Origin: a virus
Virus record (IMG/VR): IMGVR_UViG_3300005265_000855
Location: 1-33,198 of that record
Reading direction: 5' to 3' (one strand)
Length of the DNA: 33,198 nt
Part shown: positions 5,180 through 22,429 of the stretch, piece by piece
How positions within the stretch are numbered: position 1 is the stretch's first letter
Layout: every line of letters starts with the position of its first letter
The notes under the pieces: model-generated
Database searches by the model: none
Told to the model about the DNA's origin: nothing
What the model saw: only the letters and a program-made list of their open reading frames with translations
Translations under genes and position numbers: made by a program

Positions 5180-5900
5180 CTACGTCCTCCTGAAAACGCT
5201 GCCGGAAGTTTAACCTCTCCTTTATCGCTTGACGAAACTGCTCCGGACAGTCCTCCGTAAATATTAGTCTAGCTACTGCTTTTCCGCAAGCGGAAACGAT
5301 TAGACCGATACCATCGTTCTCTTCTACCAATGCCGAGGTCTGAAAACGCACCGCTACTTCCTCTTCTCTGTGCTCTCTCAGATGTTCTAATAATTCGTAG
5401 TAACTGGGCTGGGAGGCCAGATAGTCCACCAAACCGGCGACGTCCGGCCCCTCTTCCTCATTCCCAGGTTCCAGGCTACGTCTCAGGCTCCCCAGGGCTG
5501 CCAGCAGCTTGCTCCTGCCCAAGGTTGCCAAGAACTCCCACGGCAACCCCAGCCTAATTCTATATACCTCCCATACCCTAGCACGCTGGTTGGCGCGCCG
5601 GGGCTCCATTTCCAGGATGTCCAGGCAGAAATCGTTCCAACCCCAATCCGGGTCGGGCGCGAATAGCTGCCAAAGGGCACGTCCATCCGGCAGGGTCGTA
5701 TTCTGCAATAGCCAGATGCTTTCGCAATCTCGGAGAAAGGCTGCCGTCTCATCCGCGCAGCTTCTCTTATGCCGCTCAACCAGAAGGATAGCCTTCAGCT
5801 CCGGCTCCGCCGTGCTCAACGCCAGCTCCAGCTCCCGGTCGTCAAGCTCCGATACGTCCTTCGGCCTTGCCAGGTCAAATCTCGATGTCGTCTGCCTCAT
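5160..5900 (-). CDS. hypothetical protein in the replication cluster (246 aa)
   Basis: No family recognised. The start at 5900 is supported by GGAGGTTGAAG before ATG AGG. The protein is soluble and mixed helical. The first 60 residues are acidic and leucine-rich (DDRELELALSTAEPELKA); a tryptophan-rich middle follows (LFAPDPDWGWNDF, about 90-105), and a C-terminal third is rich in E, R and F. It lies between dnaB (26-base overlap) and the RuvC-like gene (20-base overlap), so it is probably translated with them. No catalytic motif stands out. Confidence 0.6.
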   Translation of the reverse strand: MRQTTSRFDLARPKDVSELDDRELELALSTAEPELKAILLVERHKRSCADETAAFLRDCESIWLLQNTTLPDGRALWQLFAPDPDWGWNDFCLDILEMEPRRANQRARVWEVYRIRLGLPWEFLATLGRSKLLAALGSLRRSLEPGNEEEGPDVAGLVDYLASQPSYYELLEHLREHREEEVAVRFQTSALVEENDGIGLIVSACGKAVARLIFTEDCPEQFRQAIKERLNFRQRFQEDVVASFRP

Positions 5901-7191
5901 CTTCAACCTCCAACATATCGTCTGAAACGAAACGTAGCCTCAGGCTGTCGAAACTACAGGCAAATCCTGCCGTTATCGGCTTCTCAAGGTAAATCTCCGC
6001 CTCCGGGCTGGCGAGGTCCGTGTCCATCAGCTCAGGCCGGTGCATGAAGATCACGTAGTTGCTCTTCTCCGCTATCTCGCCAGAACCTCTTAAATGGTGC
6101 AGGTGTGGCTTCTTATCGCCTGTCTGGAAAACGCCCCGGCTGATCTGGCAACCCAACAACAGGGGCACAGCTAGCTGCTCCGCCGCCGTCTTCAATCTCT
6201 CCACCACCATGCCCAACAACGCGGCCTGATTGAACCCGTTACGTCTGGGCAATGGTATCTTCTGAAGATAGTCCACCACAGCTAAATCACATTTACCCGC
6301 CGCCACCAACACCTTAAGCTTAGCCACTATCTGCTCCACCACCCATCCGGGACAGTGGATAAAATGCTCACCCCCCTTCCAGCCCTTTATCTCCTCCTCC
6401 GCCTCCAACGCCCTATCCATCTCCTCGCCCATCTCGAAACGATAGTAGTGAACACCCGTGTTTCTCATCAGGCGACGCAAGATCATCTGGATAGGCGATA
6501 GCTCAAGGTGAAAGAAGCACACCTGAAATCCACGCCTGGCGTTGAACTCCGCTATCTGTTCCAGGAAGCTCGTCTTGCCCACCGCCGTGACGCCGGCCAC
6601 CGTGTATAGGTTGCCGCGACGAAGACAACCTAAAAGGACATTAAGCTCGCCCCACGGCGTTAGGATCAACCGATTCTCTTTTCTCAGCTTCTCCATTTCC
6701 TCTAGGTAGGAAAATAGCAGGTCGCTGGTCTCGCCGTGAAACAGCACATCCTCCTCCACCCTTCCGCTTAACCTCGCCACCAACTGCTGCGCCTGGGCCA
6801 GTAGGTGCTCTGGCCTCCTCGGCTCGCTCGATAGCTTGGCGATCTCCGCCCCTGCCTCCAATAACTTTCTTCTTACCGCCAGGTCTTTGAGCTGGCGGAC
6901 ATAGCCCGGCGCGTGGGCGGAAAGGGGAACTGAGTCCAACAGCCGGATAAGATAGGCCTCACCGCCAACGGTCGCCAGCTTTCCCATCCGGCGCAGCTTC
7001 TCCGCAACCGTCACCACGTCCAGGGCCGTGCCCTCCCGCCTTAACGAGGCCATAGCCTTGAAGATGATCTTGTGCTCCAATCTGGCAAATAACTCAGGAT
7101 ATACGTCCAGCTCCTCCAGTAGCTCGCCGTCCAGCAACAGGGCGCCGAGAAGGGCACGCTCCAATGTGGGATTTATGAAGCTGTCGTCCAT
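5875..7191 (-). CDS. dnaB: DnaB-type replicative helicase
   Basis: This is the hexameric 5'-3' helicase that unwinds the replication fork. The 438-residue protein has the N-terminal DnaB domain (PTLERALLGALL, then LRRMGKLATVGGEAYLIRLL around 66-85). The RecA-like core has Walker A GVTAVGKT (200-207), the glutamate in FHLELS (E230) and the Walker B strand DLAVVDYLQKI (301-311). Length is close to cellular DnaB. ATG at 7191 is preceded by GGAGGAGGAGCG; the 19-base overlap with the upstream gene suggests coupling. It follows a loader-like protein (7430-8380), a normal order in phage replication modules. Confidence 0.9.
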   Translation of the reverse strand: MDDSFINPTLERALLGALLLDGELLEELDVYPELFARLEHKIIFKAMASLRREGTALDVVTVAEKLRRMGKLATVGGEAYLIRLLDSVPLSAHAPGYVRQLKDLAVRRKLLEAGAEIAKLSSEPRRPEHLLAQAQQLVARLSGRVEEDVLFHGETSDLLFSYLEEMEKLRKENRLILTPWGELNVLLGCLRRGNLYTVAGVTAVGKTSFLEQIAEFNARRGFQVCFFHLELSPIQMILRRLMRNTGVHYYRFEMGEEMDRALEAEEEIKGWKGGEHFIHCPGWVVEQIVAKLKVLVAAGKCDLAVVDYLQKIPLPRRNGFNQAALLGMVVERLKTAAEQLAVPLLLGCQISRGVFQTGDKKPHLHHLRGSGEIAEKSNYVIFMHRPELMDTDLASPEAEIYLEKPITAGFACSFDSLRLRFVSDDMLEVEDEADDIEI

Positions 7192-8425: not shown

Positions 8426-8454
8426 TTGACATCTTTTGCAATTTGTGCTAGAAT
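8426..8454 (+). promoter_or_regulatory. plus-strand sigma70 promoter pointing against the operons
   Basis: TTGACA (8426-8431), 17 bases, TAGAAT (8449-8454), with TGC directly before the -10 (extended -10). Transcription would begin near 8461 and run antisense into the 3' end of the two-HTH gene (8489-9271). No plus-strand gene or clear terminator follows. It is one of only two plus-strand promoters seen and closely resembles the one at 9326. Confidence 0.6.
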
Positions 8455-8488
8455 AGCAATGGGTTGGCCGGTGTTAAGGGGTAAATTT

Positions 8489-9271
8489 CTATGCCCTTAC
8501 CACCAGGGCCCATATCCCAACGCCATACTTCTCTTCTTCAAAGAGATAGGCCGCCTGTTGCCCCGCTTGTATCGCACGGGCTAAACTACCGGCCTTGTGG
8601 TAGTAGAGGCGCGAATAACCCTCGCCGGGCGAAAGAGCTAGCGCCCTATCTACCTTCCGGGCCATGCCATAGCTCGCCCGATCAAACGGGGCAACATATC
8701 TATTTGGCAGTTGAAACCAAACACCGTCTGCGGCCATCTTGTATGGCGATGGGATGTGAAAGGCCAATATGTCGTCGGTCGTGGGCCAGGGACAACGGGC
8801 ATAGTTCTGTCTTACCTCCACCCCGGCCAACCTCTCCCATTGCCTCAATGTCTGCCGCGTTCTACCCCATAGCTCCTCCAACCTCTGTCTGCTAATCACC
8901 ACCCCCTTTTCGCCCTTTTGCGCCAGCCAGGCGGCGTAAAGGGCCGCCCTGAAACGACGTAAGGGAAAGAGGCAATCACTGTCCACCCACACGGGCTTGC
9001 CAACACGGCAACCTAACGTCTCCGCTACCTTGCCTAACCCCACCAGAAAGACGCGGCGACGCCCTATCCGAAAGAAGGGCGAAGATAACGCCTTCCTCAC
9101 CCGCCAGGCTGGGATGCCGAAACGGTCAGCCACCGCTGCAAGCTCATCCCGCTTGACCCAGCCTTTGCCCTCCTTATCCTGGGCACGCAGGATAAGCCAG
9201 AGGCGGTAGCTGTCCTCTAACCCTCTCTTGACTACTATCCTACCTAGCTCACCGTGAACCTTCAGCTTCAT
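8489..9271 (-). CDS. putative DNA-binding protein with two HTH regions
   Basis: This 260-residue protein is not assigned to a family. Two helix-turn-helix-like stretches can be seen: KRDELAAVADRFGIPAWRV (about 40-58) and VISRQRLEELWGRTRQTLRQ (about 124-143). The rest is basic and aromatic, ending in a beta-like segment (GVGIWALVVR). It could be a replication initiator or a phage regulator; the position beside the loader and helicase genes fits either. The ATG at 9271 has no ribosome site, which is unusual here. An open frame on the same strand ends exactly at the start (ATGA), so translation may depend on coupling. Both flanks carry plus-strand promoters. Confidence 0.5.
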   Translation of the reverse strand: MKLKVHGELGRIVVKRGLEDSYRLWLILRAQDKEGKGWVKRDELAAVADRFGIPAWRVRKALSSPFFRIGRRRVFLVGLGKVAETLGCRVGKPVWVDSDCLFPLRRFRAALYAAWLAQKGEKGVVISRQRLEELWGRTRQTLRQWERLAGVEVRQNYARCPWPTTDDILAFHIPSPYKMAADGVWFQLPNRYVAPFDRASYGMARKVDRALALSPGEGYSRLYYHKAGSLARAIQAGQQAAYLFEEEKYGVGIWALVVRA

Positions 9272-9325
9272 CGGTTTCTAAGCTGCACTATACTGCTTGG
9301 AGGAAACCCTTCCTGCCACCTTCGC

Positions 9326-9354
9326 TTGACAAATCGTGGCTTCTCTGCTACACT
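9326..9354 (+). promoter_or_regulatory. plus-strand sigma70 promoter of the small RNA
   Basis: TTGACA (9326-9331), 17 bases, TACACT (9349-9354), preceded by TGC. Transcription would begin near 9361, directly at the first base of a stem-loop. The promoter points away from the gene at 8489-9271 and towards the terminator at 9402-9440. Confidence 0.7.
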
Positions 9355-9360
9355 GTTAGT

Positions 9361-9440
9361 TGCGATTAGGCCTGCCCTTTCTCTAATCGCAGCCCACCTC
9401 GCCCGCCTGGGTGTTAGCCCAGGCGGGAAATCTTTTTTTT
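9361..9440 (+). ncRNA. predicted phage small RNA (about 80 nt)
   Basis: Between the plus-strand promoter and a T-run lie two stem-loops. The first pairs TGCGATTAG (9361-9369) with CTAATCGCA (9383-9391) over a 13-base loop. The second pairs CCCGCCTGGG (9402-9411) with CCCAGGCGGG (9418-9427) and is followed by eight Ts. The linker between them, 9392-9401, is GCCCACCTCG. It can pair with GAGGUGGGC, the extended Shine-Dalgarno sequence in front of at least five genes of this phage (8380, 10733, 18006, 18234, 22051). No peptide frame with a ribosome site was seen in it. Existence as a transcription unit is well supported by signals; the trans-acting role is inference. Confidence 0.55.
9402..9440 (+). 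terminator. intrinsic terminator of the small RNA
   Basis: A 10-base-pair GC-rich stem (9402-9411 with 9418-9427, six-base loop) is followed by AAATC and then T8 (9433-9440). The five-base gap before the T-run makes it less than ideal. Confidence 0.55.
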
Positions 9441-9518
9441 GTCAAAAACTGGCCGACAGGGCCGCAAGGCGGGCAGGGCGGCGGATAAGATTCTTCGTGG
9501 CTTGCCCTGTCGGCCAGT
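9440..9518 (-). terminator. minus-strand terminator with long stem (15 bp, 41-base loop)
   Basis: ACTGGCCGACAGGGC (9448-9462) and its exact reverse complement (9504-9518) form a perfect 15-base-pair stem. On the minus strand it ends directly in TTTTTGAC (9447-9440), the form of an intrinsic terminator. It closes the operon ending at 9539 and meets the plus-strand terminator at the same bases. The 41-base loop is large for a terminator. Confidence 0.55.
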
Positions 9519-9538
9519 GCTCACGGTGCCACCCTCCT

Positions 9539-9745
9539 CTAGCCCTGCCCACCTTGGCTAGCTACATCTGGACTCTCCTCAACATCCGTCAGTGTTAAGA
9601 GAAAGAGATAGCTATCTTCGCCCTTTACTGGGCCATAGACTTCAACCGATACCTCGGTACCCAGCTCCTCCACAGGCCGGTCGGCTATGACCGACTGCAC
9701 TTCGTCACCAACTACCAGCACCGCTAGGTGGCAAACCTTACCCAA
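9539..9745 (-). CDS. hypothetical small protein (68 aa)
   Basis: Not recognised. The start is TTG at 9745; GGAGCGGTAGCG stands in front, and the stop of the upstream gene (9748) is only two bases away, so coupling is likely. The protein looks like a small all-beta fold (VCHLAVLVVGDEVQSVIAD, then TEVSVEVYGPVKGED and SYLFLLTLTD) with a polar glycine-rich tail. It is the last gene of its operon before the terminator at 9440-9518. Confidence 0.5.
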   Translation of the reverse strand: MGKVCHLAVLVVGDEVQSVIADRPVEELGTEVSVEVYGPVKGEDSYLFLLTLTDVEESPDVASQGGQG

Positions 9746-10744: not shown

Positions 10745-10999
10745 CTAATATAAGCTCACCCCGTAGTGCTCATAAGGCTGCCCCTCGTTAGCCTCCTCCG
10801 GGACATCCCTATCCTTGGGCGGTATCCAGGGCAAGCCCAATGCCCGGAAAATCTCCCGCTCCGAGCGCCAGGCGACACGCTGCCCCGTACCCATCCTTAC
10901 CAGGCCCACGCCGTTGACCTTGAGGCGAAACCCCCTCCTCATGGCCAACTGTGCCAGCCAACGATTGTGCTCCTGCTGCCAGTTCTGATAAGAAAGGTT
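10745..10999 (-). pseudogene. polymerase X-type nucleotidyltransferase, 3' fragment
   Basis: Reading on from the right end of the tnpB element, the frame gives DNLSYQNWQQEHNRWLAQLA, then RRGFRLKVNGVGLVR and finally EREIFRALGLPWIPPKDRD. The last motif is the C-terminal signature of DNA polymerase X-family thumb domains (EEEIFxALGLPxIPPExRE). The matching N-terminal part lies on the other side of the element (12287-12483). An internal ATG at 10948 could still start a 67-residue peptide, but without catalytic residues. Confidence 0.75.
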
Positions 11000-11007
11000 G
11001 TCAGCTA

Positions 11008-11027
11008 CTGACGGCTCAAACCGTCAG
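11008..11027 (-). other. right-end hairpin of the tnpB element
   Basis: CTGACGG (11008-11014) pairs with CCGTCAG (11021-11027) over a six-base loop that contains the tnpB stop codon. An overlapping alternative hairpin, GTCAG-cta-CTGAC (11000-11012), lies at the very tip. In IS605 elements this end forms the 3' part of the guide (omega) RNA, with the guide taken from bases beyond the tip, here towards lower coordinates. An RNA covering roughly the last 100-150 bases of tnpB is expected from the family; its 5' end cannot be seen. Confidence 0.5.
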
Positions 11028-12170
11028 CTTGCCTCCCGAAGAGGCTTCAGGGGTGGCTGACGGCACCCCACCGTCCCGAAGGACGGCATAGCGGTTGCGG
11101 ATATTGCGTGCAGCGTTGAGGTCGGCATGAAGTTCGAGACCGCACCAAGGACAGGAAAACCGATGACGAGAACGCACCCCCTTAAGGCCACATCTGGAGC
11201 ATATTTGGCTGGTGTCTCTGGGGTCAATCAGAGCAACTTGACCTTTGCCTTCGACCTTGTATCTAGCGAAGGTAAGCAACATTCCTCTCGGCCAGGTATG
11301 GAATCTCCGGTTCCAAAATCGGGGCCCCTTCCTCCCTTGCTTAAAGTTCAGGTCCTCAAAGACAAGGACGCAGTTCTGCGGAGCCCATTCGACCAGCTTC
11401 TTGGAAGCCATGTGACAGAAGTCCTTGGTGCGGCGAGCTTGCTTGCCCTGAAGCCGTTTGAGGGCCCGAGCGACGCTCTTTGTACTTTTGCCCTCTGCCT
11501 TACGGGCCGCAAGCTTCTTTTGAAGCCGCTTGATGGTCTTTCGGGTTCGCTTATTGGCGATCCGCCTTTCGAGGCCAGAGATGAAAAGCTCTCTCTCCTC
11601 AGGGTCAACCGCCACAAGAGCGTTAGTCTCATTAAGGTCAACTCCGACGGGAAGGATACCAGGTGCATCTGGAATTTCAATGGTCAAAGCAACGTAGCCG
11701 ATAAGCTTCCCATTCTTAACCTTCACTGTGATGCTGTCTATTTCCGTGGCTCTGGCCAGCATCGGCTTGAAGTAGTCGGGGACGGTGTAGTGAAGACGCT
11801 TTCTGCCGGCTACCGTCCAGATAGAAAGTGTGCCGTCCTTTCGGAAGTCAGCGTCCCTTCCGCGCTTCCCAACGAGAAAAAGCGCAAAAGGCTTCTTGTA
11901 CTTGATAGGCTTCTTGAGCTTGTGTCCATTGTGCTTGGCCGCTACATAAGCTCCTGCAACGAGCCTAATGGCGGTACAAGTAAGCTGGCTGGAGAGCTTT
12001 CCCTTGACCGAGTGATAAATAGCTTTATGCAAGGGAAGTGCTCCGAGGGGCTTCCCTTTATTCCAAGCTTTAGGGGAAATCCGGTTGCAAACCTCTATAA
12101 AGGCCCGGAGGGTTGCCTTGAGGTCTTTGTCGGGTTCTATGACTATTTGAGCTGTCCGTCGAACTTTCAT
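11016..12170 (-). CDS. tnpB: TnpB RNA-guided nuclease (IS605 family)
   Basis: TnpB is the transposon-encoded RNA-guided DNA endonuclease related to Cas12. The 384-residue protein is full length for compact TnpBs and has all three RuvC acidic residues: D178 (GVDLNETNAL), E272 (VFEDLNF) and D350 (HADLNAARN). The zinc finger is intact, with C324/C327 and C340/C343 (CSRCG, CPWCG). The N-terminal helical part and a coiled, basic RuvC insertion (about 200-250) are present. The start is ATG 12170; no strong ribosome site precedes it, but its own promoter does. The 3' end runs into the right-end hairpin. By its motifs the enzyme looks active. Confidence 0.93.
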   Translation of the reverse strand: MKVRRTAQIVIEPDKDLKATLRAFIEVCNRISPKAWNKGKPLGALPLHKAIYHSVKGKLSSQLTCTAIRLVAGAYVAAKHNGHKLKKPIKYKKPFALFLVGKRGRDADFRKDGTLSIWTVAGRKRLHYTVPDYFKPMLARATEIDSITVKVKNGKLIGYVALTIEIPDAPGILPVGVDLNETNALVAVDPEERELFISGLERRIANKRTRKTIKRLQKKLAARKAEGKSTKSVARALKRLQGKQARRTKDFCHMASKKLVEWAPQNCVLVFEDLNFKQGRKGPRFWNRRFHTWPRGMLLTFARYKVEGKGQVALIDPRDTSQICSRCGLKGVRSRHRFSCPWCGLELHADLNAARNIRNRYAVLRDGGVPSATPEASSGGKLTV

Positions 12171-12179
12171 GGCAGTTAT

Positions 12180-12207
12180 ATTATACCACTAACAGAAGAA
12201 ATGTCAA
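12180..12207 (-). promoter_or_regulatory. tnpB promoter
   Basis: On the minus strand TTGACA (12207-12202), 16 bases, TATAAT (12185-12180), with TG one base before the -10. The ATG follows within ten bases of the -10, so the message would be leaderless or nearly so. Confidence 0.6.
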
Positions 12208-12243
12208 ACGAATAGTGGAAAGGAGGTCAAAGCCGAAATTCCT

Positions 12244-12263
12244 CTGCCGACTAAAGTCGGCAG
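12244..12263 (-). other. left-end hairpin of the tnpB element
   Basis: CTGCCGACT (12244-12252) and AGTCGGCAG (12255-12263) form a near-perfect palindrome, the subterminal hairpin expected at the left end of an IS200/IS605 element. It lies about 25 bases inside the estimated junction with the polymerase X fragment. Confidence 0.6.
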
Positions 12264-12286
12264 TCCCTTTGCGGCTGTATTCTTTT

Positions 12287-12483
12287 GTCGGATTCCCGAA
12301 AAGGTCGTGCTGTACTGCCAGAAGGGGGATTGCCACCACATCGAGGTCGTGAACTACGGGCTGGCGACGGCGGAGGCTACCAGCGGGGACTATCTTCCGG
12401 CAGACAGGGCGAAGCTGATCTCTTAGCTCCACCCACACCTGCCAGGCTTCCTCCCAGGGGAACTCACTCTTTGCGGAAACCAT
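12287..12483 (-). pseudogene. polymerase X-type nucleotidyltransferase, 5' fragment
   Basis: Starting at ATG 12483 (GAGGTGGGTC in front), the frame gives about 65 residues including the nucleotidyltransferase signature AGSLRRRQPVVHDLDVVAIP and then DLFGNP. In family X polymerases the GS-RR helix and the DxD pair hold the first two catalytic aspartates. The host frame is then lost into the tnpB element and resumes at about 10999. The third catalytic aspartate and the TGS motif are found in neither fragment, so the gene is dead even if the element were spliced out precisely. Confidence 0.75.
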
Positions 12484-13306
12484 GACCCACCTCGCGTTCT
12501 AGATTATAAGACAATCCGCTAAGTTTGTCAAGCTGGGGAAACTCCAACTGGGCACGAAGGAGACGATCCTTCCTCATCCATTCCCGTGCCGCTATCACAT
12601 ACTCTTCACAAATGTCACATCCGAACCACCTCCTGCCAAGGCGATCTGCGGCCACCAGGGTCGAACCAGAACCGCAAACGAAATCAGCCACCAGGTCGCC
12701 AGGATTTGAAAGATAGGCTATCCAAACCTCTAGCGGCTTCAGCGCCTTCTGTGTAGGATGGATTCTACGAGAAGGATGGACAACCGGCGCTTTCACAACG
12801 TTAGGCTGCTGACCTAACTGGAAGTTAAAGGTCGCGCCTGCTTTACTGCCTTTGGTAAACCAGACTGCACTCTCAAGCGCTACCATAAAGTCAACCTTCC
12901 GCATTCGTGGCGTGGGATTACTCTTCAACCAGAATAAGTGCTGACGCATCTGGAAACCAAAACGCCGCGCCAAGGCTATCAGATATGCGCTGCGATTCAG
13001 ATCAAAGAAAATCACTAAGTGCCCTGAGTCCTTAAGTACCCTGGCCTGTTCTTTGAGAAAGGCCTTTATAAAACGCCAGTAGTCTCGCTCACTGTCGAAA
13101 TGATCCCATGCGCCGAAATCCAAGCTGATGTCAGAACCAGGAAACCTTAACGAGTCTTTCCTCCGATGGATTACCACCTCTTGTGAAACAGCCCAGGGCG
13201 GATCGGTAACTATCAGGTCTATGCATCCATCTGGGAGCTCAGCCATAACTTCTAAACAATCACCCACCACTATAGTGTTAGGCCGATATCTACCTAACCG
13301 AGACAT
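12464..13306 (-). CDS. DNA methyltransferase, N4-C/N6-A beta class
   Basis: This is an S-adenosylmethionine-dependent DNA amino-methyltransferase. The 280-residue protein has motif IV DPPW (35-38) before motif I DFVCGSGST (208-216), the order of the beta class, and a HPTQK segment (183-187) typical of this group. Length is normal for an orphan phage methylase, and no restriction enzyme is beside it. A likely role is protecting phage DNA from host restriction or marking it. The start ATG at 13306 overlaps the upstream gene by 17 bases and has a weak ribosome site. A consensus promoter for the next gene lies inside its 3' end. Target sequence and N4 versus N6 cannot be told. Confidence 0.88.
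   Translation of the reverse strand: MSRLGRYRPNTIVVGDCLEVMAELPDGCIDLIVTDPPWAVSQEVVIHRRKDSLRFPGSDISLDFGAWDHFDSERDYWRFIKAFLKEQARVLKDSGHLVIFFDLNRSAYLIALARRFGFQMRQHLFWLKSNPTPRMRKVDFMVALESAVWFTKGSKAGATFNFQLGQQPNVVKAPVVHPSRRIHPTQKALKPLEVWIAYLSNPGDLVADFVCGSGSTLVAADRLGRRWFGCDICEEYVIAAREWMRKDRLLRAQLEFPQLDKLSGLSYNLEREVGHGFRKE
12503..12531 (-). promoter_or_regulatory. consensus sigma70 promoter for the polymerase X operon
   Basis: On the minus strand TTGACA (12531-12526), 17 bases, TATAAT (12508-12503). It lies inside the end of the methyltransferase gene, about 20 bases before the ATG of the broken polymerase X gene at 12483. Confidence 0.75.
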
Positions 13307-18045: not shown

Positions 18046-18234
18046 TCACTCCTGCTCCCTTGCCAATTCCTCAACGGCGGCGTTCAACTGACGCCACTCC
18101 TCCAAACTGATGAACAGGCGGCGTCCTTTCACCTCTGCCCCATAGGGGTCAAGCTCGACAAGGCGAATGTCTACACCACCGCTATCGTCCACGATGACTA
18201 ACGCCACCTGTCCACATAGCTCCACCACCTTCAT
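18046..18234 (-). CDS. PC4-like small protein (62 aa)
   Basis: ATG at 18234 follows GGAGGTGGGCTGAT. The protein has strands ELCGQVALVIVDD and GVDIRLVELDPYG, then RRLFISLEEWRQLNAAVEEL, which closely follows the PC4 layout (dIRxxY..., KGIxLxxEqWxxL). PC4/YdbC-type proteins bind single-stranded DNA and help transcription or replication. It is paralogous to the protein at 14066-14242 and shares the helix pattern with both halves of the protein at 20716-21180. The fold call is inference; the paralogy is visible directly. Confidence 0.6.
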   Translation of the reverse strand: MKVVELCGQVALVIVDDSGGVDIRLVELDPYGAEVKGRRLFISLEEWRQLNAAVEELAREQE

Positions 18235-18501: not shown

Positions 18502-18530
18502 ATTATATCACATTTTTTCGAGATTGTCAA
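18502..18530 (-). promoter_or_regulatory. consensus sigma70 promoter of the middle operon
   Basis: On the minus strand TTGACA (18530-18525), 17 bases, TATAAT (18507-18502), with TGA before the -10. A palindrome TGCAATTGCA lies directly downstream (about 18494-18503) over the expected start of transcription and could be an operator. Upstream, AACCTTAAAAGTT (about 18553-18565) recurs in similar form at the promoter 22401-22429. Confidence 0.8.
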
Positions 18531-22400: not shown

Positions 22401-22429
22401 ATTATAACACATTTTCGCCAACTTGTCAA
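22401..22429 (-). promoter_or_regulatory. consensus sigma70 promoter of the small-gene operon
   Basis: On the minus strand TTGACA (22429-22424), 17 bases, TATAAT (22406-22401), with TGT before the -10. The spacer end CGAAAATGTG is nearly the same as in the promoter 18502-18530 (CGAAAAAATGTG). About 45 bases upstream lies AACCTTAAAGTT (about 22475-22486), also shared. The rest of the 234-base gap 22349-22582 holds a T8 tract on the minus strand (22545-22552) after the tail genes, without a convincing stem. Confidence 0.8.

Follow-up and report, generated by a model that had tools for sequence, protein, structure and literature searches.

On the plus strand of the window, by which we mean the whole virus record of 33,198 bases, positions 9361–9440 read as a self-terminating RNA gene lying on the strand opposite the replication genes. 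The initial annotation had described there a structured, terminated small RNA with an exposed linker, and promoter, fold, terminator and linker exposure were all confirmed at the sequence level. The feature is real and most likely belongs to an already known kind. We favour a cis-antisense reading over the claim, made in the same annotation, that the RNA acts on several operons, which we keep as a possibility. Tentatively, and with slightly less than even confidence, we regard the RNA as a cis-encoded antisense RNA of the pMV158 RNAII or lambda OOP kind, which would brake the gene starting at 9271 and possibly also those that follow it. The parts of the RNA gene are the following:

9326–9354, plus strand: promoter, TTGACA-17-TACACT with an extended −10 (TGC), ranking sixth among all promoter-like sites of the window in a log-odds scan of both strands.
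9361–9391, plus strand: hairpin 1 of the small RNA, nine Watson-Crick pairs and a G-U, with an 11-nt C/U-rich loop.
9392–9401, plus strand: unpaired linker GCCCACCUCG, the complement of GAGGTGGGC, facing an SD-like site on the minus strand.
9402–9440, plus strand: intrinsic terminator, an 11-pair hairpin and a T tract, the best T-tract terminator of the window.

The RNA 9361–9440 was predicted to fold with a minimum free energy (MFE) of −36.7 kcal/mol, compared with −21.9 ± 3.0 kcal/mol for shuffled sequences (z −4.9), none of 200 shuffles being as good. Both the 9-bp first hairpin and the 10-bp terminator hairpin described initially hold, each with one extra G-U, the second thus comprising 10 pairs and one G-U. 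In this fold, the linker positions 9392–9401 have a probability of being unpaired of 0.88–1.0. The terminator stood out among the seven T-rich tracts of the window: the fold upstream of its T tract reached −25.6 kcal/mol, against −13.8 kcal/mol for the next best, and 9402–9440 was the sole canonical T-tract terminator found in the 33 kb on either strand. Inverted copies of TTGACAAA at 9326–9333 (the −35 box of the RNA's own promoter) and at 9438–9445 (after the T tract) bracket the RNA gene.

The small RNA lies in the largest intergenic gap of the window and faces the leader of the minus-strand gene for a 260-aa protein:

9272–9538, between minus-strand genes: the largest intergenic gap, 267 nt, holding the small RNA and no clearly coding frame; the minus-strand genes are otherwise tightly packed.
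8489–9271, minus strand: 260-aa orphan protein, with an ATG that has no SD and a clear coding signal from the first codons; the likely gene affected in cis.
5875–7191, minus strand: DnaB-like replicative helicase (family match), in the same gene block as the 260-aa gene.

As expected of a cis-antisense RNA, the gene carries in sequence its own promoter and terminator on the opposite strand, giving a short RNA, and this RNA is complementary to the leader or intergenic stretch just upstream of the presumed target gene. The 260-aa gene is located three genes upstream of dnaB, in a block which also has a 316-aa gene. Family searches with the 260-aa protein gave no match; helix-turn-helix-like segments were recognised by eye, and single-sequence structure models were poor for both the 260-aa and the 316-aa proteins (pLDDT 40 and 45, respectively). 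Neither clear iterons nor a clear origin signature could be recognised within or around the 260-aa gene, and GC skew keeps its sign there. With no family match and a poor fold, it is position only that ties this gene to replication.

The initial annotation called this the only convincing plus-strand transcript. Its promoter is not the only good one on that strand: 8426–8454 (+), TTGACA-17-TAGAAT with an extended −10, scores 17.4, higher than 9326–9354 and than every other plus promoter in the window. It overlaps a minus promoter at 8477–8450, and the two strongest plus promoters (8426 and 9326) stand on either side of the 260-aa gene. A second small RNA at 8461 (+) was rejected, having a weaker fold (z −2.4) and no terminator, and the plus-strand coding frames 9254–9598 and 8491–8895 were rejected as well, with −0.20 and −0.33 per codon. 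We considered that the terminator might end an antisense RNA of about 1 kb, starting from 8426–8454, running over the 260-aa gene and stopping at 9440, to which the 9326 promoter and hairpin 1 would add, control then being exerted by transcription collision and not by the small RNA. The strength of the 8426 promoter and the uniqueness of the 9402–9440 terminator are consistent with such an RNA, and between 8461 and 9440 there is no other plus terminator except a weak 5-bp site. The long RNA would not need the 9326 promoter, yet this promoter is strong and placed exactly at the base of hairpin 1; moreover, the 8426 promoter may be limited by the minus promoter that it overlaps. We regard this explanation as rather improbable.

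On the minus strand, no promoter in 9271–9560 ranked above about 400th in the log-odds scan, and a weak TATAGT was found at 9292–9287 (score 4.9). Because there is neither an SD before the ATG at 9271 nor a good minus promoter in 9271–9560, the 260-aa message probably comes from upstream, through the gap. Other minus promoters are near-consensus, with perfect 12/12 sigma-70-type promoters at 22401–22429, 18502–18530 and 12503–12531 (−) heading gene blocks; the replication block has no promoter of 12/12 quality before 9271. The minus strand of the gap itself carries three elements:

9448–9518, minus strand: perfect 15-bp inverted repeat with a 41-nt loop, then a short T run (hairpin −34.7 kcal/mol).
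9414–9524, minus strand: 36-codon GTG frame, SD-led by AGAGGAGGGTGG, ending in the loop facing the plus-strand terminator.
9269–9387, minus strand: 39-codon frame with an ATT at SD spacing from GAGGTGGGC; its stop overlaps the ATG at 9271 and its coding signal is weak.

The repeat at 9518–9448 (−) may act on the minus-strand transcript as a leaky terminator or an attenuator. The MFE fold of the leader (−101.2) paired the inverted-repeat region with the SD-like site, and the fold with the inverted repeat enforced reached −97.4. The minus-strand leader may therefore adopt more than one structure.

It had also been proposed that the linker could instead mirror a minus-strand ribosome site, that of the ATT frame (9387–9269). 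This found slight support: the SD spacing and the stop within the ATGA of the next gene stand, but codon usage is poor. Taken further, the signal would be of the minus strand only, GAGGTGGGC serving a 39-codon leader frame as its ribosome site and translation of that frame being coupled to that of the 260-aa gene, while the complementarity on the plus strand would be passive and any plus transcript would do little. The spacing from SD to ATT is the same as at 18234 (GAGGTGGGCTGATATG), and the overlapped ATG at 9271 has no SD of its own, as would suit a coupled leader. ATT is however very rare as a start codon (infC) and would sit here in a hairpin stem, and the site is devoid of the AAG found before GAGG in most matching ribosome sites. 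The codon score of the frame, −0.16 to −0.21 per codon, falls between those of real (0.36 ± 0.22) and false (−0.41 ± 0.17) frames, and only 1–2% of real 38–39-codon stretches score as low. The strong plus promoter and the terminator would also be left unexplained, and we judge this alternative to be quite unlikely. The sliding codon profile of the gap 9272–9538, the sole basis on which the 36-codon frame (9524–9414) was judged, showed no frame with a clear coding signal; the 36- and 39-codon frames may be real genes filling the gap.

We then turn to the linker and its matches at the ribosome sites. In the whole window, GAGGTGGGC occurs on the minus strand alone, in six copies. Five of them coincide with ribosome sites (starts 8380, 10733, 18006, 18234 and 22051), and the remaining copy is the minus-strand reading of the linker. 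The exact 9-nt complementarity to these five sites had been reported initially and was borne out, together with the one-base variants at starts 12483 (GAGGTGGGT) and 16033 (GAGGTGGGG); start 15691 (GAGGTGGGA) is likewise one base off GAGGTGGGC. When annotated ribosome sites were left out, about 11 of 31,748 plus-strand 10-mers had a 9-nt complement in at least five ribosome sites, hence p ~3.5e-4 for a random linker to match at least five of them. Pure chance is thus an unlikely source of the match.

The proper control for the linker is the antisense of an ordinary ribosome site, rather than a random sequence. Duplex energies were accordingly compared over 36 start regions chosen from the ORF list. 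The linker averaged −13.5 kcal/mol and the 16S tail −13.2 kcal/mol; ranked together with the antisense sequences of the 36 genes' respective ribosome sites, the linker came 17th of 37, with 16 of the 36 antisenses averaging equal or better. Accessibility-aware pairing gave −10 to −16 kcal/mol at six start regions, versus 1 of 119 random regions, and the six strongly pairing starts are those of genes with the shared GAGGTGGG(C/T) site. Pairing prediction against the start regions therefore yielded six accessible partners, but a mean energy like that of any anti-SD. The RNA does present an exposed seed complementary to several ribosome sites, as a trans-acting anti-SD RNA should, while its complementarity does not exceed that of any anti-SD sequence, the 16S tail being about equal. 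Because antisense and 16S controls score alike, the RNA carries an anti-SD of the phage's own type and no designed target set is singled out. That so many ribosome sites seem to be matched is for the most part what any ribosome-site complement would give, and the action of one RNA on several operons found no support above this generic level.

A trans-acting RNA, whose anti-SD linker would pair with the GAGGTGGGC ribosome sites of several genes and jointly lower their translation, appears unlikely to us. The exposed linker with its five exact complements and the accessible pairing at six starts both argue for it. A precedent exists in C-rich small RNAs acting on G-rich ribosome sites, namely sX13 of Xanthomonas, a C-rich trans-acting RNA with such targets (PMC3771888). 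The phage RNA shares with sX13 and with RNAIII of Staphylococcus aureus an exposed C-rich stretch and G-rich targets at ribosome sites; it differs from them in that its complementarity is at the generic anti-SD level and its trans targets are predicted ones. The linker does not outscore the 16S tail or the antisense of a usual ribosome site of the phage, and the complement shared with each target amounts to the SD plus GGC, with a gene-specific extension of only two bases, at 18234. In addition, the position opposite a leader lets a cis role explain the linker. The controls suggest that its matches elsewhere follow from complementing a sequence of the phage's ribosome-site type, and trans effects would be secondary. 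A dual role, in which cis control of the 260-aa gene would be combined with mimicry of the 16S anti-SD braking the phage's strongest GAGGTGGGC-type ribosome sites in trans, several operons being translated less and less as the RNA accumulates with genome copy number, seems very doubtful.

In the cis-antisense model, which we prefer, the plus promoter would yield an RNA of ~80 nt, ended at its own terminator, within the gap between two minus-strand genes. A minus-strand mRNA running through the gap into the 260-aa/316-aa/dnaB block would bear the exact complement of all 80 bases, and this complement could likewise fold into two hairpins with an exposed linker. Pairing would start at the exposed linkers and loops and spread to a full duplex, covering the SD-like site 9400–9392 and altering the leader fold near the 9518/9448 hairpin. 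The duplex would then lower translation, or make the mRNA more prone to decay or to termination ahead of the 260-aa gene, and the dose of this gene, perhaps also of the replication genes behind, would be set in this way. The promoter-like sequence, the fold, the terminator, the linker exposure and the positional complementarity are the computed parts of the model; transcription of both strands, pairing and effect are what we infer from them.

The perfect 80-bp duplex was predicted at −174.6 kcal/mol, compared with about −37 kcal/mol for each self-fold. The model is supported by the anatomy of the locus: a strong promoter and a unique terminator frame an RNA of z −4.9 in the largest gap, just before the 260-aa gene. 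As the RNA faces a leader, no additional assumption is needed to account for the linker by a cis role. Two features speak against the model: the 9518/9448 hairpin with its T run could halt the minus mRNA before the gap, leaving little sense RNA, and the TATAGT at 9292–9287 could begin a leaderless 9271 message having no overlap with the RNA. Exposure on the sense side is also less certain, since minus-strand MFE folds partly pair the complement of the linker.

We compared this arrangement with known antisense systems. RNAII of plasmid pMV158 is a small antisense RNA that faces the stretch between copG and repB, directly before the atypical initiation signals of the latter, and its binding begins with single-stranded tails (PMC4485353). 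Similarly, the phage RNA is a short self-terminating antisense in an intergenic region, opposite the leader before a gene with atypical initiation signals, and has exposed single strands. RNAII is however 48 nt long with one hairpin, whereas the phage RNA would be ~80 nt with two; furthermore, the genome here is that of a phage, carrying genes for a tail and for DnaB, the 260-aa gene downstream is an orphan and at most a putative initiator gene, and the likeness proposed is one of layout. Lambda OOP is a small phage RNA with its own promoter and terminator, transcribed against the replication-gene operon (PMC5869508, PMC12197685). The phage RNA resembles it in having its own promoter and terminator opposite a replication-gene block, but OOP overlaps the cII 3′ end while the phage RNA faces a leader with an SD-like site. 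Neither cII nor lysogeny genes were recognised in this phage. The c4 RNA of P1 and P7 and its target derive from one transcript, out of which c4 is cut, unlike the small RNA here, for which a separate promoter lies on the other strand. c4, too, is a phage antisense RNA, blocking a ribosome site via exposed complementary stretches (PMC12197685).

No useful relative turned up when INPHARED phages, PLSDB plasmids, IMG/VR and GTDB genomes were searched at the DNA and protein levels. The queries between them covered the 260-aa, 316-aa, DnaB, FtsK, tape measure, TnpB and 466-aa proteins, each against some or all of the collections, and the peptide-pattern searches detect close relatives only. DnaB and FtsK had phage matches at only ~25–31% identity. 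The phage thus looks like an orphan, with seven proteins devoid of useful relatives in these searches and only DnaB and FtsK having distant phage matches. A 15-mer of linker and terminator was too common to serve as a probe for relatives, and the single exact 18-mer match elsewhere was dismissed as chance, since it falls within a DNA polymerase-like reading frame and nothing else there is similar. Rfam gave no match in the window at family threshold and chance-level hits only for 9271–9600; no tRNA or tmRNA was found in the window. As no relatives were found, our verdict stands on anatomy and controls in one genome.

Recognisable products of the minus-strand genes are a DnaB helicase, an FtsK-like ATPase and a tape measure protein. 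A TnpB gene (NF040570, E 1e-40) is located at 11016–12170 (−) with its own 12/12 promoter at 12207–12180, the −10 of which ends only 10 nt short of the ATG, a leaderless-like arrangement. On either side, the frames 12181–12483 and 10745–10990 (−) look by eye like opposite ends of a PolX-type nucleotidyltransferase, and the TnpB element may therefore have landed inside a PolX-type gene. At 90–713 (−) we found a radical SAM protein resembling QueE (best E 1e-27, well short of the curated cut-off), which hints at a deazaguanine pathway in the phage, and at 1282–1863 (−) a DUF2227 protein.

For the search of small RNAs in general, C-rich linkers matching many ribosome sites call for an antisense control built on ordinary ribosome sites before a multi-target claim is made. 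For this phage, if the cis-antisense reading is true, a plasmid-style antisense RNA would control a gene adjoining the replication block, and an orphan phage would provide an independent example of copy-number-like control outside plasmids and lambdoid phages.
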